64,000 nt of DNA. Origin: Arachnia propionica (lineage in GTDB: Bacteria; Actinomycetota; Actinomycetes; Propionibacteriales; Propionibacteriaceae). The stretch lies in the NCBI RefSeq assembly GCF_003859805.1, contig NZ_RQZG01000012.1, positions 1 through 64,000 of the forward strand, written 5' to 3'. This document shows positions 18,160-57,729 of this stretch, one piece after another. The notes beneath the pieces were generated by a model that saw only the letters and a program-made list of their open reading frames with translations, was not told the origin of the DNA and ran no database searches. Position numbers and translations under genes: made by a program. Positions within the stretch are counted from its first letter, which is position 1. Each line of letters starts with the position of its first letter.

Positions 18160-18214
18160 CCGCTGGTCGAGCCGGTTCCGGAGATCTGCGGAGGAACCGA
18201 GTCGAGACCTCTGG
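18160..18214. repeat. CGCTGGTCGAG dispersed repeat, copy A
   Basis: About 55 bp starting CGCTGGTCGAGCCGG and ending GTCGAGACCTCTGG. Clearly related copies lie at 34539-34590 and, as an inverted pair, at 57594-57729. It is located in the intergenic DNA upstream of the oxidoreductase gene. Confidence 0.65.
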
Positions 18215-18336
18215 TGCACGGTACGGGGACTCAGGGTCAGCGGAGTGCTCGGGGCCTGCCACGGACTTCGTGCGCTCGAGGTCTGGCGTGAGCAGCGGCT
18301 GGGCGGAGCCCTCGTGGGCTGGGATGTACCATGCCC

Positions 18337-23320: not shown

Positions 23321-23773
23321 ATGACCAGTTGGCGTGAGTTCGAGCCGGCACTTGCCGAGGTACTGCCCAAGCTGCCCGACGGTGCCCGCCTGGTCATCAG
23401 CGGGTCGAGCGGACTGGTCCAGTTCATCCGCGATGCCGCCGAGTTGGTCGTCGAGGTGTCGAACGAGTCCAGCGAGGACCAGCCCCGGCTCACGGACCGG
23501 GGCTGGGTGATGATCGACTCCTGGTCCGGCATCTGGCGTCGCACCTTCCCGCATCCGGCCACCGGCGACGACGCGGGCACCGTCGTCGCCGAGACCGGCT
23601 ACGTCCTCAAGGTGGTCTTCGGCTGGACCGGGCTGGCCGATCACACCTATGCCTCGTGGCGGGAGGTCAGCAAGAGTTTCCTCGGATTGTTCTCGAGGAC
23701 CGAGGAGAAACCCCTCAGCTGGCCCAGCCTCGGCCTGGCCCGGACCCGCGAGGACGGCCCCATCAACGACTGA
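23321..23773 (+). CDS. Hypothetical protein, possibly TY-Chap-like
   Basis: Protein of 150 residues with an AGGAG ribosome site before the ATG and a TACGAT -10 candidate at 23285. The N-terminal half (WREFEPALAEVLPKLPDGAR, LVISGSSGLVQFIRDAAELV) alternates strand and helix. It recalls the TY-Chap N-domain pattern, in which a single-domain protein starts W-x-x-F-x-x-x-L and has VQF in the second strand. This is recollection, not a confirmed match. No catalytic residues, signal peptide or membrane segment are seen. Function unknown. Confidence 0.6.
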   Translation: MTSWREFEPALAEVLPKLPDGARLVISGSSGLVQFIRDAAELVVEVSNESSEDQPRLTDRGWVMIDSWSGIWRRTFPHPATGDDAGTVVAETGYVLKVVFGWTGLADHTYASWREVSKSFLGLFSRTEEKPLSWPSLGLARTREDGPIND

Positions 23774-23866: not shown

Positions 23867-24069
23867 TTTGCCTGCCTTGTGATGGTTTCGCCTGTCCTGG
23901 GGCGGAAATGCCTGTCTTGTTCGGGTTTACCTGCCTTATTGGACAGGCAATTCGATTTTGGGCAGGCAAACCGTGCGCAAGACAGGCGAAACGGTCTCAG
24001 GACAGGTAAACCCGAACAAGGCAGGCGAAAGCGGAACAAGACAGGCGAACCGTGCTCAAGACAGGCGAA
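23867..24069. repeat. 20-bp-period iteron array 1 (4 forward + 7 reverse units)
   Basis: Eleven 13-bp units. Forward type (consensus TTYGCCTGYCYTG) begin at 23867, 23887, 23907 and 23926. Reverse type (CARGRCAGGCRAA) begin at about 23938, 23958, 23978, 23998, 24017, 24037 and 24057. Starts are 19-20 bp apart, with variable 6-7 bp between cores. The order makes a large imperfect dyad. It fills the space between convergent genes; reading frames through it are spurious. Related arrays lie at 33241-33447 and 42842-42945. Confidence 0.85.
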
Positions 24070-24342: not shown

Positions 24343-25629
24343 TCAGCGCTGCTCGATCGGCACGTAGTCGCGCTTCGGCTGGCCGACGTAGATCTGGCGG
24401 GGACGACCGATCTTGCGCTTCGGGTCGGCGTGCTCCTCGCGCCACTGGGCCAGCCAGCCGGGGAGGCGTCCCAGCGCGAACAGCGCGGTGAAGTACGAGG
24501 CCGGGAAGCCCATCGCCTCGTAGATCAGACCCGTGTAGAAGTCGACGTTCGGGTACAGCCGACGCTCGATGAAGTAGTCGTCGTTCAGTGCCGTCTCCTC
24601 CAGCTCCAGCGCCATGTCCAGCATCTGGTTGTTCTTCCCCGACGCCCGGAGGATCTGGTCCGCGTGCGACTTGATGATCCGGGCACGGGGATCGTAGTTC
24701 TTGTAGACGCGGTGGCCGAAGCCCATCAGCCGCACCCCGGAGGACTTGTCCTTCACCTGGGAGACGAAGGTCTTCACGTCCAGACCCTCCTCCTTCAGGT
24801 ACGACAGCATCTCCAGCACCGCCTGGTTCGCGCCCCCGTGCAACGGACCCGACAGGGCGTTGACGCCCGAGGCGACGGCGGCGAAGATGTTCGCATCCGA
24901 CGACCCGACCATGCGCACCGTCGCCGTCGAGCAGTTCTGCTCGTGGTCGGCGTGGAGGAGGAACAGGGTCTCGAAGGCCCGCACGACGGCGGGATCCAGG
25001 TCGTACTCCTCCTGCGGCGTGCCGAACGACAGCCTGAGGTAGTTCTCCACGTAGTTCAGCTTCGTCAAGGGGTACAGGAACGGCTCACCCACCGACGACT
25101 TGTAGGCGTAGCCGATCAGCGTCGGCATCATCCCGAGCAGCTTGAGGGTGGAGATCTCCACCTGCTCCGGGTCGTGCGGGTCCAGGAACTGCCGGTTGAA
25201 CGCGCCCGCACCGATCACTCCCGCGCTGAGCACCATCATCGGGTGCGCACCACGCGGGAAGGAACGGAACAGCTCCCGCATCCGCTCGTCGAGCATCATC
25301 CGCCGCATCACGTTGTCCCGGAACTCGTCCAGCTGCGTCTGCGTGGGCAGCTCACCGTAGATCAGCAGGTACGCGACCTCCAGGAACGACGACTTCTCGG
25401 CCAGCTGTTCGATGGGGTAGCCGCGGTACCGCAGGATCCCCTTCTCGCCGTCGATGAACGTGATCTCGGACCTGCACGAGGCCGTGTTGACGAATCCGAC
25501 GTCCAGGGTGGAGTTGCCCGTGCTGCCCAGCAGCGTGCTGATGTCGTATCCGTTGTTGCCCTCGGTCGCCTCGACGACCCCGAACTCCAGCTCGGCGTCG
25601 CCGTGCTTGAAGGTGGCGGTATCAGTCAT
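24343..25629 (-). CDS. gltA: Citrate synthase
   Basis: Protein of 428 residues, the length of type II hexameric citrate synthases. It carries the active-site histidines in SGPLHGGANQAVLEM and GFGHRVYKNYDPRAR, the conserved GILRYRGYPIEQLAE near the N-terminus, and an Asp in NVDFYTGLIYEAMG. It condenses oxaloacetate and acetyl-CoA, the entry step of the TCA cycle. The start at 25629 is preceded by a GGAG. It is monocistronic and divergent from a UMF1-type transporter. Confidence 0.97.
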   Translation of the reverse strand: MTDTATFKHGDAELEFGVVEATEGNNGYDISTLLGSTGNSTLDVGFVNTASCRSEITFIDGEKGILRYRGYPIEQLAEKSSFLEVAYLLIYGELPTQTQLDEFRDNVMRRMMLDERMRELFRSFPRGAHPMMVLSAGVIGAGAFNRQFLDPHDPEQVEISTLKLLGMMPTLIGYAYKSSVGEPFLYPLTKLNYVENYLRLSFGTPQEEYDLDPAVVRAFETLFLLHADHEQNCSTATVRMVGSSDANIFAAVASGVNALSGPLHGGANQAVLEMLSYLKEEGLDVKTFVSQVKDKSSGVRLMGFGHRVYKNYDPRARIIKSHADQILRASGKNNQMLDMALELEETALNDDYFIERRLYPNVDFYTGLIYEAMGFPASYFTALFALGRLPGWLAQWREEHADPKRKIGRPRQIYVGQPKRDYVPIEQR

Positions 25630-31723: not shown

Positions 31724-33028
31724 CTAGTGACGCGACTGCCGGATGCGCGCCGCGACCTCGCGCCAGGTGGGGACGACGACGCCGTGTGCCCGCATCTTGG
31801 TGCGCAGCTGGGCCCGGGTGATGTAGATCCCGGCGATGCCTGCGGCGAAGAAGGGCAGCTGCAGTGCCATCGCCAGGTTGAGCTGGGCCGGGGTGTAGTC
31901 GCCGTCGGGGGCCAGCCAGCCCAGCACCGTGCCCATCAGCAGCAGGCACAGCGTCGCGCCGGTGAAGGAACCGGCGATGACCAGGCCGTTCGCGGCTCCC
32001 AACCGGTGGGCGGGCAGCAGGGTGCGGGGGTAGTCGAAACCGATGCCGGTGCCCGGACCACCGGCGGCCATCGCCAGCACCAGGGTGATGAGCAGCCACC
32101 AGGGGACGGGGCCGGGCCACAGCAGCGCGATCCCCCAGGCGACGACGTGGGCCCCGATGACCACCAGGGCCAGGTTGCTGCGCCGGAGGGGGTGCCGGGC
32201 GGTCAGCCAGCCCAGCAACGGTGCGAAGAACATCGAGCCGAGGACGGTGAGGCTGAACAGGAAGGCGGCCTCGGTCTCGGAGCGGTGCTGGGCGACGATC
32301 AGCCAGGGGATGCCCCAGATCATCGCGAACACGTTGACGCTGAAACCGCTGGTGAGGTGCACGAAGAAGCCGAGCCGGGTGGCGGGGTGTCGCCACGCGT
32401 CGACGATTCCTCTCGGGAGGTCACGGATGCGGTCCTCGGCGGGGAGGGGACGTGTCGCCCCGGCCGGGACGTCCTTGACCAGCAGGGCGCAGCCGACCGC
32501 ACAGGCCAGTGAACAGATGGCGGCGACCAGGAACGTCGTCGCCCAGCCGTGCAGGGAGTGGAGCGGCAGCAGCAGGGCGACGGCGGCGATCTGCCCCAGC
32601 TGCCCGAGCAATCCGGAGAGCTGGCTGAGCACCGGCACCCGCGGGGCGGGGAACCAGGCCGGGATGAGCCGCAGCACCGCACCGAACATGCAGGCGTCGC
32701 CGATGCCGAGCAGCACCCGGACCGCCAGGGCCAGGCCCAGGGAGTCGGTGAAGGCCATGCCGGTCTGCGCCACCGTCATGATGAGGGACCCCGCGACGAG
32801 TACCGCCCGCGCCCCGTAGCGGTCGATGAGGACGCCGACGGGGGCCTGGGTCACGGCGTAGACGGCCAGCTGCACCATCACGAAGGTGGAGACGATGCCG
32901 ATGCTCGTGTTGAAGTGCTCGGCGGTCTGGATGCCGAGTGTGCCGAGGCTGGTGCGGTGCATGATCGCCGTCGCGTAGGCGAGGATGCTGATGGTCCACA
33001 CGACCCACGCCATGCGTTCGTTGCGCAC
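31724..33028 (-). CDS. MFS transporter
   Basis: Protein of 434 residues with 12 membrane segments. The GTG at 33028 was chosen for its GGAGGA ribosome site eight bases upstream; the ATG at 33013 (MAWVVWTISI) is the other option. The first loop carries the MFS motif GVLIDRYGARAVLVAGSLIM. GSMFFAPLLGWLTARHPLRR is the equivalent loop in the second half, confirming the internal duplication. The cytoplasmic C-terminus is basic. No substrate-specific motif is visible; the overall look is of a metabolite or nitrate/oxalate-type MFS carrier. Confidence 0.87.
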   Translation of the reverse strand: MRNERMAWVVWTISILAYATAIMHRTSLGTLGIQTAEHFNTSIGIVSTFVMVQLAVYAVTQAPVGVLIDRYGARAVLVAGSLIMTVAQTGMAFTDSLGLALAVRVLLGIGDACMFGAVLRLIPAWFPAPRVPVLSQLSGLLGQLGQIAAVALLLPLHSLHGWATTFLVAAICSLACAVGCALLVKDVPAGATRPLPAEDRIRDLPRGIVDAWRHPATRLGFFVHLTSGFSVNVFAMIWGIPWLIVAQHRSETEAAFLFSLTVLGSMFFAPLLGWLTARHPLRRSNLALVVIGAHVVAWGIALLWPGPVPWWLLITLVLAMAAGGPGTGIGFDYPRTLLPAHRLGAANGLVIAGSFTGATLCLLLMGTVLGWLAPDGDYTPAQLNLAMALQLPFFAAGIAGIYITRAQLRTKMRAHGVVVPTWREVAARIRQSRH

Positions 33029-33240: not shown

Positions 33241-33447
33241 TTCGCCTGTCCTGCTGTGGGCTCGCCGGTCCTGATGTCGGCTCGCCTGTCCTGCTCCGGT
33301 TCGTTTTCGCCTGTCTTGTTCGGGTTTGCCTGTCCTGGTGTCGGTTCGCCTGCCTTAAATCGAATTGCCTGTCTAATAAGGCAGGCAAACCCGAACAAGA
33401 CAGGCAATTGATGATCAAGGCAGGCGAACCGGAACAAGGCAGGCGAA
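33241..33447. repeat. 20-bp-period iteron array 2 (7 forward + 4 reverse units)
   Basis: Forward units begin at 33241, 33261, 33281, 33306, 33325, 33345 and 33364. Reverse units begin at about 33377, 33396, 33416 and 33435. Spacing is 19-20 bp except for one 5-bp insertion (33281 to 33306). The arrangement is the mirror image of array 1 (4+7) and totals 11 units again. The dyad centre is GCCTGTCTAATAAGGCAGGC. It lies in the 548-bp gap between the MFS start and the metallopeptidase end; the rest of that gap shows nothing clear. Confidence 0.85.
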
Positions 33448-33576: not shown

Positions 33577-34407
33577 TCACTCGCTCCCGGTGAGGGCCTT
33601 GATCCAGGCGGGCTGCGACGGTGTCGTCGTGGCGGCGATCTCCTCGGCGGTCACGTCGCAGGCGGCCTTCTTGCCGGGGCCGGGGCCGAACTCCCGGCCG
33701 TCGAAGACGTTCTTCCTGACCCACTCGTAGTAGGCCTTGTGGCGGGGGGTGTCGTAGGGGTTGTCCTTCGCGCAGCGGGCGACGTAGTAGCCGACGGTCT
33801 CGGCCAGGATCTCGGTGTCCTTGCTCCCGGCGTACTCGCTGAAGTGCCCTTCCTTCTTCGCAAGGGTCTGGAATTCACGCCAGTAGGCCGGGTTGCCGAA
33901 ACGGTCGGAGTTCCAGGCGTGGGTCAACTCGTGGATGACCAGTCGGGACAGCTTCCCGGGGTCCTTGTCGTCCATGACCTCGGCCCACTTGGCGAAGTCG
34001 AAGGTGACGTGACCGCCCTTGGTCAGCGACCAGTCGCCCCACGCGTAGCCCCGGATGGAGCCGGCGTTGAGTCCGACCTGCCCGTTCTTCTCGGTGATGG
34101 TGGCCATGAAATCGGTGCAGGCGACGGCGTCGAGCGACTGCCACACGATGCGGATCTGTTCGCGGTGGGCGTCGCTCCAGCCGTTGCCGGTGAGGGTGAG
34201 CCCGTAGTTCGCCGCGAGTTGTTCCTTGATCTTGGTGATGGAGACGTCCTTGCCGGGCCACGGATGGGTGACGGGGCACGGCGCATGGATGCCGACGGCG
34301 GAGGGGCCGACGGGTGTGTCGCTCTCATCGGCGGTGGCCCGGGAGCCGAGCACGACGCCGGTGAGGACCATGACCGTGATGGCCAGGCACAGCGCGAGCT
34401 TTCGCAT
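33577..34407 (-). CDS. Secreted zinc metallopeptidase-like protein (HELTH)
   Basis: Protein of 276 residues. It has a Sec signal peptide (MRKLALCLAITVMVLTGVVL, cleavage near SRATA), then a domain with VIHELTHAWNSDRFGNPAYW, an HExxH zinc site preceded by a helix, and a downstream ILAETVGYYVARC where the Glu is a plausible third ligand (gluzincin-like spacing). TITEKNGQVGLNAGSIRGYA and HVTFDFAKWAEVMDD lie before it. The HELTHAW context resembles lethal-factor-like or DUF4157-like secreted peptidases, but I cannot name the family. The ATG at 34407 has a GGAGAAGG site. It is expected to be extracellular. Confidence 0.78.
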   Translation of the reverse strand: MRKLALCLAITVMVLTGVVLGSRATADESDTPVGPSAVGIHAPCPVTHPWPGKDVSITKIKEQLAANYGLTLTGNGWSDAHREQIRIVWQSLDAVACTDFMATITEKNGQVGLNAGSIRGYAWGDWSLTKGGHVTFDFAKWAEVMDDKDPGKLSRLVIHELTHAWNSDRFGNPAYWREFQTLAKKEGHFSEYAGSKDTEILAETVGYYVARCAKDNPYDTPRHKAYYEWVRKNVFDGREFGPGPGKKAACDVTAEEIAATTTPSQPAWIKALTGSE

Positions 34408-34538
34408 CCTTCTCCATTCACTACCCCCGGGGAAGAGTCTCTCAGGATTCTCAGGAATGTCAACCCGCCGGGGGGTGTTGCGCGTCACGACGGCGCATCC
34501 CGGCAGCCATCCGCCGCTGGCCTGATCGCCGCCCCAGC

Positions 34539-34590
34539 CGCTGGTCGAGGCGGGTCCGGAGCGTGCAGAGGACCCGTGTCGCGACCTCTG
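34539..34590. repeat. CGCTGGTCGAG dispersed repeat, copy B
   Basis: Starts CCGCTGGTCGAGGCGGGTCC and ends GTGTCGCGACCTCTGG, aligned along its length with copy A at 18160. It is the only structure I can identify in the gap 34408-34766. Confidence 0.6.
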
Positions 34591-34766
34591 GCCCACGGTG
34601 CGGGCCCTGAGACGGGTGGAGGCCTCGTCGAGGAGCGCTCCTCTCGGGCAGGAACCGCCAGGGAAGAACCCTCTCGCCGTCGACCACCTGAACCCGCCGA
34701 CGGTGAGACGTCCTGTGCCCGCGAATCGTGCTCCGGGGAAGGGCGGAGAAGGGGCACGTCGGGGGG

Positions 34767-42655: not shown

Positions 42656-42738
42656 GCGCGAGTGGCGGAATGGCAGACGCGCCGGCTTCAGGTGCCGGTG
42701 CCCGCAAGGGCGTGGAGGTTCAACTCCTCTCTCGCGCA
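42656..42738 (+). tRNA. tRNA-Leu (anticodon CAG)
   Basis: An 83-nt class II tRNA. Acceptor arm GCGCGAG/CTCGCGC with discriminator A. D-arm GGCGGAATGGCAGACGC, anticodon stem CCGGC/GCCGG around TTCAGGT (anticodon CAG, codon CUG), a long variable arm CCCGCAAGGGC, and a T-arm with GGTTCAACTC. CCA is not encoded. A terminator hairpin follows. Confidence 0.95.
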
Positions 42739-42742
42739 CGAT

Positions 42743-42841: not shown

Positions 42842-42945
42842 TTCGCCTGTCCTGGATCGGGTTTGCCTGCCTTGTTCGGAATTGCCTGTCTTGTTGGGCA
42901 GGTAATTCCGAACAAGGCAGGCGAACCGGCCGCAAGGCAGGCGAA
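42842..42945. repeat. 20-bp-period iteron array 3 (3 forward + 3 reverse units) upstream of Wadjet
   Basis: Forward units begin at 42842, 42862 and 42881; reverse units at about 42894, 42913 and 42933. The two halves pair almost perfectly: F2 plus its spacer (TTTGCCTGCCTTGTTCGGAA) is the complement of R2 with one mismatch. It ends about 28 bp before the candidate -10 of the jet operon. Confidence 0.85.
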
Positions 42946-43006: not shown

Positions 43007-44434
43007 GTGGACCAGCCCGCCGTCGAGCTGCTGCGTGACCAGAGTGCGGCCTGGCGGCTGCTGCGAGCCACGAACAGCCCCCTCATCCTGTCCTTCCTCG
43101 GTGGTTTCTTCGTCACCGTCAACCGCGGCGCCACCCCCGCCCACATCGTCGCCTCGGCCCTGGAGGACCATCTGTTCGCCCTGGTCGACGGCGACGAACG
43201 CTACCCGCGCCCACCCACCCAGTACCTGGAGGAGTGGGCCGCACCCGAGGCCGGGTACCTCCGCCGCTTCTACCCACCCGGCCACGACGAGATCCACTAC
43301 GAGGTCACCCCCGCCTTCGAGAAGGCCTATGCCTGGGTCGACTCCCTCCAGGCCCGTTCCTTCGTCGGCACCGAGTCACGCCTCCACACCGTCGTCGACC
43401 TGCTCCGCCAGATCGTCCACGGCACCGATGCCGACCCCACCTCCCGCCTGGCCGAGCTGCAGCGCCGCCGTGACCTCATCGACGCCGAGATCGCCGCCGT
43501 CGAGGCCGGGCAACCCCCCATCCTCGACGACGTCAAGGTCCGTGACCGCTACCAGCAGGTCGCCACCACCGCCCGCGCCCTGCTCAGCGACTTCCGGGAG
43601 GTCGAGGAGAACTTCCGGCACCTCGACCGGGCCGCCCGCGAGAAGATCGCCGGCTGGGACGGCACCAAGGGGGACCTGCTGGCCGAACTCGTCGGCTCCC
43701 GCAGCGACATCACGGGCTCCGACCAGGGCCGCAGCTTCCAGGCCTTCCACGACTTCCTGCTGTCGGGCAGCCAGCAGGAGGAACTGAGCACGCTGCTCTC
43801 CCGCGCCACCGACCTGCTGGGACCCGACGCCGACCAGCGGCTGCGCACCATCCACCACGACTGGGCCGAGGCCGCCGAACGCACCCAGCACACCGTCCGA
43901 CAACTGTCCGAACAGCTCCGGCGGTTCCTCGACGACCAGGTGTGGCTGGAGAACCGGCGTGTGCTGGACCTGGTGCGCGGCATCGAGGCCGCCGCCCTCC
44001 AGGTCCGCGACGCACCCCCTGAGTGGGGCATCGAGATCGACCTGCCCGGCCTGCCCATCGTGCTGCCCTTCGAACGTCCCCTCTACGAACCCCCGACGAC
44101 GGCGGACGTGGTCAGCCTCATCCCGCCCGTGGGGGACGACCCCCTCGACGACGAGGCCCTGTTCACGCAGCGTTTCGTCAACGCCGCCCGTCTGGCCGAG
44201 CTGGTGCGGGGCGTCCTGCCGCCGAGGTCCTCGATGCAGCTGGAGGACATCGTGGACCTGTACCCGCTGGAGCAGGGAGCCGCCGAGATCGTCGGCTACC
44301 TCAGCATCAGCGATGACGAACTGAGCGTGGAACTCGACGACGGCGACGTCACTGTGCTGGACTACCCCGACGAGCACGACGAGCAACGATGGCGTCGGGC
44401 ACGACTACCGAAGGTGACGGTGAGACGACGATGA
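43007..44434 (+). CDS. jetA: Wadjet subunit JetA (DUF3375)
   Basis: Protein of 475 residues. GTG start set by AAGGAGG six bases upstream. It has the DUF3375 opening AVELLRDQSAAWRLLRATNS, then PLILSFLGGFF, an N-terminal winged-helix region with ALEDHLFALVDG and LRRFYPPGHDEIHYEVTPAF, and long helices carrying ERTQHTVRQLSEQLRRFLDD. JetA is the kleisin-like subunit that bridges the JetC heads and binds JetB (a MukF-like role). In type I Wadjet the complex extrudes DNA loops, senses small circular plasmids and cleaves them. First gene of the four-gene operon; its stop overlaps the jetB start (ATGA). Confidence 0.95.
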   Translation: MDQPAVELLRDQSAAWRLLRATNSPLILSFLGGFFVTVNRGATPAHIVASALEDHLFALVDGDERYPRPPTQYLEEWAAPEAGYLRRFYPPGHDEIHYEVTPAFEKAYAWVDSLQARSFVGTESRLHTVVDLLRQIVHGTDADPTSRLAELQRRRDLIDAEIAAVEAGQPPILDDVKVRDRYQQVATTARALLSDFREVEENFRHLDRAAREKIAGWDGTKGDLLAELVGSRSDITGSDQGRSFQAFHDFLLSGSQQEELSTLLSRATDLLGPDADQRLRTIHHDWAEAAERTQHTVRQLSEQLRRFLDDQVWLENRRVLDLVRGIEAAALQVRDAPPEWGIEIDLPGLPIVLPFERPLYEPPTTADVVSLIPPVGDDPLDDEALFTQRFVNAARLAELVRGVLPPRSSMQLEDIVDLYPLEQGAAEIVGYLSISDDELSVELDDGDVTVLDYPDEHDEQRWRRARLPKVTVRRR

Positions 44435-44997
44435 GTGTGGAACCCGAGGTGAGCCGGGCCATCATCAAACTGATGCAGGGAGTGGTCTACCGGGAGGTCG
44501 ACGAGGACACCTGGGGCACCCTGGAGCGCGCCTCCGGGGCCATCCGCGACCACTTCGCCGACATCGGGGTGGACGTGGTGGTCGCCGACGCCGAGGGCTT
44601 CGCCTACCTGCGTTCCCGCTCCGACGACGGCGACGACGAGCTGCCGCGACTGGTGCGTCGCCGGGCCCTGACCTACAACGTCTCCCTGCTGCTGGTGCTG
44701 CTGCGCAAACGCCTCGCCGAGTTCGAGTCCCTGTCCACCGATTCCAAACTGGTGCTCACCGGGGAACAGATCGTCGACCTGCTGCGCACCTTCCAGGCCG
44801 AGACCTCCAACGAGGCACGCATCGCCGATCAGGCCGAACGCACCGTCAAGCAGGTGGCGGACCTCGGGTTCCTGCGCCCGCTGCGTGGGGAGCCGGACCA
44901 CTGGGAGGTGCAGCGGGTGCTCAAGGCATTCGTGGATGCGGAGACGATGGCTGATTTCGAGGCGAAACTGCGGCAGTACGCGGGGGTGGAGTCATGA
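44431..44997 (+). CDS. jetB: Wadjet subunit JetB (DUF4194)
   Basis: Protein of 188 residues. It reads SRAIIKLMQGVVYREVDEDT, WGTLERASGAIRDHFADIGV, an Asp/Glu-rich turn, then RRRALTYNVSLLLVLLRKRL and a final wing with LGFLRPLRGEPDHWEVQRVL. These are the tandem winged helices of DUF4194/MukE-like KITE proteins. JetB is the KITE subunit that dimerises on the JetA kleisin. The ATG at 44431 is in a four-base overlap with jetA; an upstream in-frame ATG at 44389 would duplicate the end of JetA. Its stop overlaps the jetC start. Confidence 0.93.
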   Translation: MSVEPEVSRAIIKLMQGVVYREVDEDTWGTLERASGAIRDHFADIGVDVVVADAEGFAYLRSRSDDGDDELPRLVRRRALTYNVSLLLVLLRKRLAEFESLSTDSKLVLTGEQIVDLLRTFQAETSNEARIADQAERTVKQVADLGFLRPLRGEPDHWEVQRVLKAFVDAETMADFEAKLRQYAGVES

Positions 44998-47900
44998 GCG
45001 ACGCCCTGTTCCCCACCGTCGAGCTCGGATCCGCAGGACGTGCCGGGTACCGGCTCAAGCACCTGGAGGTGTTCAACTGGGGCACCTTCCACGACCGGGT
45101 GTGGCGGCTGACCCCCGACGGCGAGACGGCGTTGCTCACCGGGGACATCGGCTCCGGCAAGTCCACCCTGGTCGATGCCGTCACCACCCTGCTCATGCCC
45201 GCCGGGAGGATCGCCTACAACAAGGCCGCCGGGGCCGATGCACGGGAACGCACCCTGCGTTCCTACGTGGAGGGGCACTACAAGTCGGAGCGGGTGGAGT
45301 CCTCCGGGCGTTCCCGTGCCGTCGGGTTGCGCACCGACGGCACCACCTACTCCGTGATCGTCGGGGTGTTCAGCAACGACGGTTTCGACGAGACCATCTC
45401 GTTGGCCCAGGTGTTCCAGCAGCGTGACCCGAAGGGGCAGCCGTACCGGTTCTTCGTCACCGCCACCAGGGCGTTGGACGTCCACACCGACTTCGGGCAC
45501 TTCGGCACCGACCTGAAGGCCCTGCGGAAACGGCTGCGCTCCGACCCGGAGGTCACCCTCTTCGACGACTACCCGAAGTACGCGTCGTCACTGCGACGGC
45601 TGCTCGGGATCCGCTCCCAGCAGGCCCTGGAGCTGTTCCACCAGACGGTGTCGATGAAATCGGTGGGGAACCTCAACGAGTTCGTCCGGGACCACATGCT
45701 GGAGCCGGCGGACGCCTCGGGTCGGGTGGCGGGCATCCTCAGCCATTTCGACGACCTCACCAAGGCCCACGACGCGGTCAGACGGGCCCGGGAGCAGCTC
45801 GAGGTCCTGACCCCGCTGGTGGCCACCAGTCAACGCTACGACACGGCGCTGAGCAGCCGTGAGGCCGGTCAGGCGCAGCTGGAGGCGGTTCGGCTGTTCG
45901 TCGCCGAGCATCGCGCCCAGCTGCTCGCCGACGAGGTGGCGGCCTGCGTCGTCGAGGAGACCCGGCTGGAGTCGCAGTGCGATGTGGAGCGGCAGCGTCG
46001 CAAGGCCCTGGAGCGGGAACGGGAGACCCTCATCGAGGAGCGCAGTGAGGCGGGCGGCAACCGTATCGGGGAGCTGGAGCGTCTCGCCCGCGACGCCCGC
46101 ACCGAGGCCGGGACCAGACTGCGATGGCGGGGCGCATTCGACGACGCCGTCGGCAAGGCCGGCCTGGCGCCGGTCGGTGACGCCGACGCCTTCGCGGCCC
46201 TGCTCGCGACCACCGGTGAGCTCACCGCCGGGCTGGTGAGTGCCCGGCAGCAGGTCGAGGCCCGGCGTGGTGACGCGGAGGCCCGGGTGCGTGACCACCG
46301 TCGTGGCCTGGCGGAGGTGGCGCGGGAGGTCGAGAGCCTGGAACAGCGCAGCAGCAACCTCCCCGCTGAGCAGGTGATGCTCCGTGAGCTGCTCTGCGAC
46401 GACCTGGGCTTGACCACGGACCAGCTGCCGTTCGCCGGGGAGCTGCTGGACGTGTCACAGGAGCACGGCCAGTGGCGGGGAGCTGCGGAGCGGGTGCTGC
46501 GTGGTTTCGCGCTGTCGCTGCTGGTGCCCGACGAGCACTACCGTGTGGTGTCGGCGTGGGTGAACGAGCGTCGTCTGGAGCTGCCGGGGCGGGACGGTCG
46601 ACGGGTCGGAGCCCGGCTCACCTACGAGCGGGTCTCGACGCGACGCATCCGCAGCCAGGCGGAGCCGTCGCCGTGGCTGCGGTTGGCGGACTGCCTGGAG
46701 GTCCGTGACGGACCGTTCGCGGCGTACCTCGAGCAGGAGCTGCAGCGGCGTGCCGACCATCGCTGCGCCGAGGACCTGGCCGAGTTCCGTGACTTCCACG
46801 TGGCCAGGGCCGTCACCCGCCAGGGGCAGGTGAGGAACGGGGACCGGCACGTCAAGGACGACCGGCACCGTGCCGATGATCCACGACGGTGGGTGCTCGG
46901 CTGGGGCAATGAACGCAAACTGCAGGTGCTGCAGCAGGAGGTCGCGGAACTGCAGCAGGCGGTGCGGCACGCGGAGCAGGAGGTGTCGGCGGCCCGGGGT
47001 GAGCTGGAGCAGATCCAGGGGCAGTTGGACGCCCTGAACCGGCTGGGGGAGTACCGTTCCTGGACCGATCTGGACCACGAGGAGGCGACGGCCCGTGCCC
47101 AGGCGGCCGAGACCGAACGGGCACGGCTTGAGGGGGCGTCGTCGCGGCTGGTGGAGATCACCCGTCAGCTGGAGGCCAACTCCGGGCGCATCGCGAGGAC
47201 CGATGCGGTGATCGAGGAACTCACCAAGAAGGTGGCCCGGTTGGAGGGGGAGCGGGTCAAGGCGGAGCAGGCGAGGGCGGCTGACGACGCCCGCGTCGCC
47301 GCGCACCCCGATCCGGAGCGGGCCAGGGCCAGCTACCCGGCGCTCATCACGCAGCTCGGGACGATGCCCGCCACCTCGGCGGCATGGGAACCGGCCAGGG
47401 AGCAGCTGGAGGACGACCTCGGGCGTCGGATCGAACGGCTGCACCGGGAGCTCGGCGGGTTGGGGCAGGGTCTGCTCGCCGGGATGAACGAGGTGCTGCG
47501 GCGCTGGCCGGAGCTGAGGGTGGACCTGGACCCGGCCGTCGAGGCGCGGGACGAGTTCGTCGCGCTGCACCGGCAGGTCAGCGACGACGACCTGCCCCGT
47601 TTCGAGGAGGAGTTCAAGCAGCAACTCAACACGAACACGGTGCGGGAGTTGGCGCAGTTCAACGCGTGGTTGCGGCGGCAGGCCGAGCAGATCGACGACC
47701 GGGTGGCGCACATCAACGAGGCGCTCGGGGCCATCGACTACAACCCGGGTCGCTATGTGCGGCTGGAGAAGCAGAACACCAACAACAGCGACGTGATCGC
47801 CTTCCGGGAGGACCTGCGGCGTGCCGTCGATCACGCCCTGTCGGGGGACCACTACTCGGAGCAGCGGTTCCTGGACGTCAAGGCCATCATCGAGCGGTTC

Positions 47901-48386
47901 CGGGGTCGGGAGGGGCATGCCGAGGCGGATCGGGCGTGGACCCGTCGCGTCACGGATGTGCGGAACTGGTTCGTGTTCTCCGCCTCGGAGCGGGATCACG
48001 ACACCGACGAGGAGTGGGAGCACTACTCCGACTCCGACGGCAAGTCCGGCGGTCAGAAGGAGAAGTTGGCCTACACCATCCTGGCGGCGTCGCTGGCCTA
48101 CCAGTTCGGGCTGGAGTGGGGGGTGGAGCGCTCCCGGGACTTCCGGTTCGCCGTGATCGACGAGGCCTTCGGGCGGGGCTCGGACGCCTCGACGCGGTAC
48201 GCGTTGACGTTGTTCGCGAAGCTGGGGTTGCAGTTGCTCATCATCACGCCGTTGCAGAAGGTGCAGGTCATCGAGCCGTACGTGCGGGCCATCGGGTACG
48301 TGGACAACCCGGGTGGCACCAATTCGCGGCTGCACACCATGACCATCGAGGAGTACCGGAGCAGACGAGGCAGGCGTGAGCGATGA
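44994..48386 (+). CDS. jetC: Wadjet SMC-like ATPase JetC
   Basis: Protein of 1130 residues. Walker A is LLTGDIGSGKSTLVDA at about 48-63, in the N-terminal half-domain. Long coiled-coil arms enclose a hinge region near 420-600. The C-terminal half-domain has the ABC signature DSDGKSGGQKEKLAYTILAA at about 1018 and Walker B FRFAVIDEAFGRGSD at about 1050. This is the MukB/COG4913-type layout of JetC, the motor that extrudes DNA with ATP. All nucleotide-site motifs are present, so the protein should be active. ATGA overlaps join it to jetB and jetD. Confidence 0.96.
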   Translation: MSDALFPTVELGSAGRAGYRLKHLEVFNWGTFHDRVWRLTPDGETALLTGDIGSGKSTLVDAVTTLLMPAGRIAYNKAAGADARERTLRSYVEGHYKSERVESSGRSRAVGLRTDGTTYSVIVGVFSNDGFDETISLAQVFQQRDPKGQPYRFFVTATRALDVHTDFGHFGTDLKALRKRLRSDPEVTLFDDYPKYASSLRRLLGIRSQQALELFHQTVSMKSVGNLNEFVRDHMLEPADASGRVAGILSHFDDLTKAHDAVRRAREQLEVLTPLVATSQRYDTALSSREAGQAQLEAVRLFVAEHRAQLLADEVAACVVEETRLESQCDVERQRRKALERERETLIEERSEAGGNRIGELERLARDARTEAGTRLRWRGAFDDAVGKAGLAPVGDADAFAALLATTGELTAGLVSARQQVEARRGDAEARVRDHRRGLAEVAREVESLEQRSSNLPAEQVMLRELLCDDLGLTTDQLPFAGELLDVSQEHGQWRGAAERVLRGFALSLLVPDEHYRVVSAWVNERRLELPGRDGRRVGARLTYERVSTRRIRSQAEPSPWLRLADCLEVRDGPFAAYLEQELQRRADHRCAEDLAEFRDFHVARAVTRQGQVRNGDRHVKDDRHRADDPRRWVLGWGNERKLQVLQQEVAELQQAVRHAEQEVSAARGELEQIQGQLDALNRLGEYRSWTDLDHEEATARAQAAETERARLEGASSRLVEITRQLEANSGRIARTDAVIEELTKKVARLEGERVKAEQARAADDARVAAHPDPERARASYPALITQLGTMPATSAAWEPAREQLEDDLGRRIERLHRELGGLGQGLLAGMNEVLRRWPELRVDLDPAVEARDEFVALHRQVSDDDLPRFEEEFKQQLNTNTVRELAQFNAWLRRQAEQIDDRVAHINEALGAIDYNPGRYVRLEKQNTNNSDVIAFREDLRRAVDHALSGDHYSEQRFLDVKAIIERFRGREGHAEADRAWTRRVTDVRNWFVFSASERDHDTDEEWEHYSDSDGKSGGQKEKLAYTILAASLAYQFGLEWGVERSRDFRFAVIDEAFGRGSDASTRYALTLFAKLGLQLLIITPLQKVQVIEPYVRAIGYVDNPGGTNSRLHTMTIEEYRSRRGRRER

Positions 48387-49519
48387 GGACGGCATGGTCC
48401 GGGCCGGAGGCGGTCCGGGTGGTGGTGCAGCGTCGCTGGAACAGCGGTGAGCTGTTGCGTGCCCACGCCGCCGGGGAGGAGTTGGTGCCGATCCGGGTGC
48501 CGTTGAAGGGGCCGCGTGCGGCGGAGGTCGCGGACCAGTTGGCGCGGATCGAGGCGTGGATCAGCAGGCTGGAGAAGGCCTCCGGGGGTGGGGACTGTTT
48601 CGAACTGGTGTGGAAGCAGGTCGGTGGGCGGCGGTTCCAGCGGGAGCGGCTGCCCAGCCACGCCGTCGTCACGAGCCTGGAGCAGGCGTGGCGGCTGCTG
48701 GGGTCGCGGGCGGAGGTGGACCGGTTCGACGAGGTGCTGGCGCTGGTGGCGGGGGTCCCGACGGTGCGGGCGTGGGTGCTGGAGCATCCGCTGCGGGCGT
48801 TGCGGATCGACGACTGGCGGGCGCTGCTGGCCACCTTCACCTGGCTGGACGGGCACCGGGGATCGGGACGGCACCTGCGGGAGATGAGTGCGCCGGGGGT
48901 GGACACGAAGTTCGCGGAACGGCACCGGGGTGTGTTGGCGGAGCTGCTGCGGGTGCGGGGCTCAGCGACGGGTTTCCTCGACGATCTGGGGCTGGGGCGT
49001 CGCCCGGAGCTGGTGCGGTTGCGGCTCGGGTCGGGGCTGGGGTGGCTCGGGCTCAGTGAGGTGGCGGTGCGGGCCGAGGAGCTGGCCCGGCTGGAGTTGA
49101 CGCCGTCGCGGGCCCTCATCGTCGAGAACGAGGTGACGTATCTGAGTGTGCCGGTTCCGGATGACGGGGTGGTGCTGTGGGGACGCGGTTTCGACGTGGA
49201 CCGGGTGGGGCGGTTGCCGTGGCTGGCGGGTGTGGAGGTGACGTACTGGGGTGACATCGACACGCATGGTTTTGCGATCCTGAACCGGTTGCGTGGCTGG
49301 CTGCCCGAGGTGCGTTCGGTGCTGATGGATCGGGAGACGCTGCTGGAGCACCGTGACCAGTGGGTGCGTGAGGGACGCCCGACGGTGGCGTCGCTGTCCA
49401 GGCTGAGCCCTCAGGAGGGGTTGCTGTACCGCGAGCTGGTGGAGGACCGGTTGGGGAGCAGGGTCCGGTTGGAGCAGGAGTTGATCTGCTGGCCCTGGGC
49501 CCTGGAGCGGCTGGGCTGA
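48383..49519 (+). CDS. jetD: Wadjet nuclease subunit JetD (DUF3322/DUF2220, TOPRIM)
   Basis: Protein of 378 residues. The N-terminal DUF3322 half begins with WSGPEAVRVVVQRRWNSGEL. The C-terminal half is DUF2220, a TOPRIM-like nuclease, with RALIVENEVTYLSVPVPDDG (the catalytic Glu strand) and EVTYWGDIDTHGFAILNRLR (the D-x-D metal site). JetD cleaves the plasmid DNA trapped by the JetABC loop extruder; both metal-site motifs are intact. It is the last gene of the operon and a strong terminator follows at 49537. Confidence 0.95.
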   Translation: MRTAWSGPEAVRVVVQRRWNSGELLRAHAAGEELVPIRVPLKGPRAAEVADQLARIEAWISRLEKASGGGDCFELVWKQVGGRRFQRERLPSHAVVTSLEQAWRLLGSRAEVDRFDEVLALVAGVPTVRAWVLEHPLRALRIDDWRALLATFTWLDGHRGSGRHLREMSAPGVDTKFAERHRGVLAELLRVRGSATGFLDDLGLGRRPELVRLRLGSGLGWLGLSEVAVRAEELARLELTPSRALIVENEVTYLSVPVPDDGVVLWGRGFDVDRVGRLPWLAGVEVTYWGDIDTHGFAILNRLRGWLPEVRSVLMDRETLLEHRDQWVREGRPTVASLSRLSPQEGLLYRELVEDRLGSRVRLEQELICWPWALERLG

Positions 49520-57593: not shown

Positions 57594-57729
57594 CAGCTGG
57601 TCGAGCCGCGAAGCTGAGCGATCGTGTCGAGGCCTCCGGGACCCGGTGCCGGAACTCAGGTGGAGCGGAGACCTCGCCGGGTCTCGGCACGGTTTCCTTC
57701 GCAGGTTCGCGGCCCGGCTCGACCAGCGG
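57594..57729. repeat. CGCTGGTCGAG dispersed repeat, inverted pair (copies C1 and C2)
   Basis: The left copy starts AGCTGGTCGAGCCGCGAAGC (57594-57638). The right copy is the same family on the other strand (57668-57729), reading CGCTGGTCGAGCCGGGCC from 57729 leftwards. Together they bracket about 30 bp and resemble a small inverted-repeat element. Apart from this, the terminator and the operators, the gap 57536-57988 shows nothing. Confidence 0.6.

Follow-up and report, generated by a model that had tools for sequence, protein, structure and literature searches.

Phased dyad arrays dispersed in the genome of Arachnia propionica and the gene for a putative AbiEi/nuclease fusion that they bracket

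Arrays in the 64-kb window

The window, that is, the whole stretch of 64,000 nucleotides analysed here, belongs to the genome of Arachnia propionica, of the Propionibacteriaceae (G000; other G numbers are comparison genomes and L numbers are loci). Three arrays of short half-site units were found in the window, and the gene bracketed by such arrays lies outside it. The arrays and their neighbours are as follows.

23321-23773, + strand, YbjN/TY-Chap-like gene, convergent with citrate synthase across array 1
23867-24069, no strand, array 1, 4 forward and 7 reverse half-site units with a 19-20-bp period
23926-23951, no strand, centre of array 1, two abutting head-to-head units
24343-25629, - strand, citrate synthase
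31724-33028, - strand, MFS transporter, neighbour of array 2
33241-33447, no strand, array 2, 11 units (7 forward and 4 reverse)
33364-33389, no strand, centre of array 2, abutting head-to-head units
33577-34407, - strand, ORF, neighbour of array 2
42656-42739, tRNA-Leu, flanking array 3
42842-42945, no strand, array 3, the smallest form (104 bp), with 3+3 units of which one is degenerate
42881-42906, no strand, centre of array 3, abutting head-to-head units, the reverse unit degenerate
43007 (start), JetA (DUF3375), flanking array 3

The original prediction described array 1 as eleven units, four forward then seven reverse, with starts 19-20 bp apart, and re-reading of the sequence confirmed this (order ++++-------; start-to-start steps 20, 20, 19, 13, 19, 20, 20, 19, 20 and 20 bp). 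The two related arrays that it placed at 33241-33447 and 42842-42945 were both present and had the same plan as array 1. Forward half-sites follow each other at 20 bp, usually with a 19-bp step beside the centre, then come a dyad and the reverse half-sites. At the invariant centre, marked by the 13-bp step, two head-to-head units abut and form a 20-bp dyad with unit centres 10 bp apart, from which half-sites run outwards every 19-20 bp. Most arms have 3-4 units, the smallest form of the array is 104 bp long, and a few copies have no centre; for example, the dyad was missing in L185:3058-3149 (G000) and retained in the near-identical G024 copy (L217:2933-3057). The unit copies closest to the centre are the furthest from the consensus, and weaker preferences exist beyond the 13-mer, with GG ahead of the T-run. 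In other species of the genus the plan was kept with 19-bp steps, in addition to tail-to-tail units with starts 16 bp apart.

Two other features were observed in the window. A complete type I Wadjet operon (JetA-JetB-JetC-JetD) occupies 43007-49519, and array 3 ends 61 bp ahead of the jetA start. A further family of dispersed repeats, CGCTGGTCGAGC..TCCGGAG..GTCGAGACCTCTGG, was found at 18160-18227, 34532-34598 and about 57623-57662, and is common to many loci of G000 and G024.

Protein contact sites or hairpins

Placement of all units on the same face of the DNA had been proposed from the two helical turns per unit, and the measured distances made this stronger: centre-to-centre spacing is 10 bp for head-to-head units, 19-21 bp for tandem units and 21 bp for tail-to-tail units (in other species), all of them whole helical turns, so all half-sites would lie on one side of the helix. 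At the variable pyrimidines (Y positions) of opposed units, pairing was at or often below chance expectation, and opposed spacers were non-complementary. Base pairing between the arms does not covary, which makes a protein footprint likelier than a hairpin. The cores were expected to be conserved while the spacers vary; between G021 and G035, 5.3% of core sites differed versus 11.1% of spacer sites (p=0.004), a comparison somewhat biased by the core mask, which demands a core match.

The prediction that this is an undescribed family, distinct from CRISPR, simple REP and iterons, was supported, and phasing on one face fits protein binding. In a CRISPR array the repeats, about 21-48 bp long, all point the same way and alternate with unique spacers of comparable length; the present units are 13 bp long with gaps of 6-7 bp, and their orientation flips at the centre. 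The co-operative binding of a multimeric protein that had been suggested held in part: the phasing fits protein binding, and a multimer is only a possible form of the protein, known AbiEi-type antitoxins being monomers that bind one repeat each (PMC7319586).

Dispersal of the arrays in the genome

The 3.4-Mb genome of G000 has 103 exact matches of the 13-mer TTYGCCTGYCYTG, 52 of them forward and 51 reverse, and none of the reversed-pattern control; a strict tandem pattern gave 61 matches versus 0. About 36 arrays were located in the genome, all intergenic. The original prediction would have failed if copies elsewhere had no 19-20-bp period, or if the arrays were confined to the three places and non-homologous; in fact the period was kept and the arrays could be aligned. 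In G000 and G024 together, the 59 arrays that were scored all lay between genes as predicted by a home-made codon-usage script. In G000, 15 arrays were placed between convergent genes, 14 between tandem genes and 6 between divergent genes.

Alignments of dispersed G000 arrays with the two arrays flanking the gene described below span about 80-130 bp with agreement of up to 86-90%, so these arrays have a common ancestry. Type B arrays (L187:3084-3353, L217:2790-3072, L201 and L185) have a conserved flank of about 130 bp, CGGCGATTCGTGACC...CAGCACGCTGA, giving a repeated unit of about 270 bp. No array was found in the plasmids searched, and the pattern scan of viral sequences gave scattered matches. 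The first pattern scan of the whole collection was too loose, and its matches were chiefly unrelated single ones.

The bracketed gene, a putative AbiEi/nuclease fusion

Clustering of the proteins that neighbour arrays revealed one gene that, in three species, has an array on each side. In G000 it is located on contig C77 (L214:3211-4128), encodes 305 aa and has a YibE/F-like gene and a class I tRNA synthetase gene as neighbours. Two arrays thus bracket an AbiEi/nuclease fusion gene in G000, which provides a candidate cognate protein; this candidate and the different words of related species were both missed by the original prediction.

The N-terminal two thirds of the protein is an AbiEi-type winged-helix/antitoxin-fold module, with an AbiEi_4 match in 22 of 23 proteins and PADLOC AbiEi in all 23. 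In the C-terminal third, E237 and K243 are invariant and D226 is near-invariant across homologues, a D-E-K set that we take to be of the PD-(D/E)XK type. One homologue matched DUF559 above the cut-off and REase_MTES_1575 below its cut-off; the C-terminal half of the G000 protein had no direct Pfam match, and no PDB match was found. From these residues and matches, the C-terminal domain is likely a DUF559/PD-(D/E)XK-like nuclease. A classical transposase between the arrays was rejected by Pfam. No AbiEii nucleotidyltransferase toxin was present beside the gene among the G000 neighbours scanned.

Homologues, some of them weak, were found in 25 of 40 genomes of the genus. The homologue is split into two frames in G005 (L301) and has a stop inside the matched stretch in G025 (L296) and G007 (L298), which suggests that some species can do without the gene. 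Arrays were present with no homologue detected in G024, the draft genome with the most arrays, and in G213, a single contig rated complete; G031 had arrays and only weak homologue matches. The right-hand neighbour of the gene has a homologue in G024, and the DNA next to this homologue contains no array. Draft contigs often terminate in or near an array (L241, L258 and L259 of G030; L220 of G024), so assemblies may lose bracketed genes. Phages gave no match to the gene, no relatives occurred on viral contigs, and plasmid records had weak relatives only; with the array scans of plasmids and viruses above, a plasmid or phage origin was rejected.

Bracketing and word specificity

Homologues in the genus, in the order and beyond it mostly had dyad arrays on both sides, each with its own word. 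Examples from the genus are TTYGCTGGCCTTA in G002, G004 and G005, GACGCCACCCTTA in G021 and G035, ACGCCCGCC in G013, G025 and G032, GACGCCAGCCTT in G023, and CTGGATACAAGCC in G027, the words of some flanks being assigned by eye. Comparison of the left flank of a gene with its own right flank gave 33.2 shared 8-mers versus 13.6 for non-cognate flanks (permutation, 0/20000), and in an order-level sample the values were 39.1 and 13.7 (0/20000). The distal-DNA control had no left-right effect of this kind.

Nested-dyad geometry at p<=0.01 was detected in 23 of 50 genus flanks versus 0 of 50 controls, and in 16 of 44 order flanks versus 1 of 44 controls; this strict test was built on the G000 plan, and about half of the flanks fail it, some through differing spacing or asymmetry. 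Relatives from Tsukamurella and Collinsella had repeats that match across the gene by eye with other spacing, and did not pass the G000-geometry test. In one Collinsella relative (L403:1770-2846), long dyads TGTCTCGATCTGTAAC...GTTACAGATCGAGACA stand on each side, with a geometry unlike that of G000.

Dispersed copies of the GCTGGCC and GCCACCCTT words were nearly confined to genomes in which the gene is bracketed by the word in question. The GCTGGCC tandem pattern occurred in 4 of 40 genus genomes, three of which (G002, G004 and G005) have the gene bracketed by this word and one of which (G213) has no detected gene. The GCCACCCTT pattern was found among the same 40 in G021 (38) and G035 (53), whose genes are both bracketed by the GCCACCCTT word, in addition to one overlapping 18-bp repeat in G029.

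Co-resident paralogues (five pairs) had essentially no word in common. With near-identical orthologues removed, word similarity tracked winged-helix identity (Mantel r 0.24-0.28, p<=0.006). In G002 and G004 the gene is found close to the neighbour gene that it also has in G000, and a change of word within an orthologous line is therefore probable.

Turnover between sister species

Many array sites are common to G000 and G024, and to G021 and G035, with unit numbers that differ by whole 19-bp steps; the arrays sampled in the sister species G021 and G035 were mostly common to both. Array L377 is missing from the syntenic G021 site (L377/L384), where loss of the array by deletion between short repeats would explain the junction equally well. 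Among the arrays sampled in G021 and G035 there was no clean insertion with target duplication, and the orthologous loci of G000 and G024 had divergent arrays and no clean empty site. With shared sites, changing unit numbers and the ambiguous L377, movement of arrays between sites is plausible and unproved.

Interpretation

We consider it probable that the arrays are the dispersed cognate sites of one bracketed AbiEi/nuclease fusion gene, and that the dispersed arrays are its non-autonomous copies. The AbiEi module would bind each half-site. At the central dyad two protomers may sit head to head, and further ones would be added outwards at intervals of two helical turns, all on one face of the DNA. 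The result would be a cooperative nucleoprotein array beside which the nuclease domains, with their presumed cleavage activity, are placed. The arrays on either side of the gene would repress it and mark the ends of the unit. The dispersed arrays would be non-autonomous, spread and maintained with help of the nuclease, as REPINs rely on RAYTs.

Another explanation, which we regard as unlikely, is that these are operator arrays of a regulator, either the AbiEi/nuclease protein or a different AbiEi-like one, which would repress its own gene together with a regulon, with the arrays kept by host selection and not by selfish spread. The intergenic position of all arrays, some directly upstream of genes (61 bp before jetA, for instance), and the slower change of cores than of spacers agree with it, and the promoter of M. 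tuberculosis Rv2827c, an AbiEi-type protein, has four repeats to which this protein binds (PMC7319586). However, the placement of the G000 arrays has no promoter bias, array positions and unit numbers have in some cases turned over between sister species, words that differ between species would demand repeated rewiring of the regulon, and two-sided bracketing is more than an operator needs.

Nested hairpins that form transcription terminators or RNA structures would account for the overall inverted symmetry and for the many arrays between convergent genes. This reading was rejected as very improbable, since the arms do not covary, their spacers do not pair and no Rfam match was obtained; it also leaves the 19-21-bp phasing and the match of word to gene unexplained. 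A passive MITE of an unrelated transposase, with bracketing due to insertion near any gene, is rated lower still: the conserved flank of type B arrays is MITE-like, but the same gene family is bracketed repeatedly, with different words, in many genera, which chance insertion cannot yield. A REP/BIME-type element mobilised by RAYT (Y1 HUH transposase) follows a like logic of cognate intergenic repeats around a gene, species-specific words and correlation of gene with repeat (PMC2817692), but is scarcely credible and was rejected here, as Y1_Tnp (PF01797) was absent from all 8 array-bearing genomes (5 of 14 control genomes were positive) and the units are non-palindromic half-sites in arms free of hairpin-type covariation.

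Comparison with known systems

REP/REPIN with RAYT (PMC2817692, PMC3116915) is the nearest known system in logic. In both, a gene is bracketed by cognate intergenic repeats, the repeats are dispersed genome-wide, and species-specific words co-evolve with the gene. The two components are nevertheless unrelated: the enzyme here is AbiEi plus a PD-(D/E)XK-like domain and not Y1 HUH, and the repeats consist of non-palindromic half-sites set in phase about a single central dyad, whereas REPs are short hairpins. The number is also different, about 36 arrays and not hundreds.

Known AbiEi-type antitoxins recognise inverted repeats in their own promoters, one monomer to each repeat, and Rv2827c occupies four at once (PMC7319586). 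The AbiE type IV toxin-antitoxin system resembles the present one in its AbiEi-type domain and the several inverted repeats beside the gene; it differs in that here a likely nuclease domain is fused, AbiEii is missing as a neighbour in G000, and the arrays stand on both sides and genome-wide, with more sites and a shorter phased period. DUF559, Vsr-like and REase_MTES_1575 PD-(D/E)XK proteins appear to resemble the C-terminal domain with its conserved acidic and lysine residues, but the AbiEi fusion and the associated cognate arrays set the present family apart.

No account of such arrays tied to AbiEi/DUF559 proteins was found in the open-access literature searched, so the gene-plus-repeat system looks undescribed, although an earlier description outside this literature could be missed. 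In its widest form, to which we give even chances, the proposal is of an independently evolved REP/RAYT analogue widespread in Actinomycetota, in which AbiEi-PD-(D/E)XK genes are bracketed by cognate phased dyad arrays, the word diversifies with the winged helix, and the arrays populate the host genome non-autonomously.

The finding would tie a common and unexplained actinobacterial gene family, whose members are annotated either as AbiEi antitoxins or as DUF559 proteins, to specific DNA sites. It would also be a second, unrelated answer to the problem posed by REP and RAYT, the joint persistence of an enzyme and dispersed intergenic repeats. Dozens of natural pairs of protein and word may serve as a data set on change of winged-helix DNA specificity, with the prediction that each protein would bind its own bracket word and not that of its neighbour.
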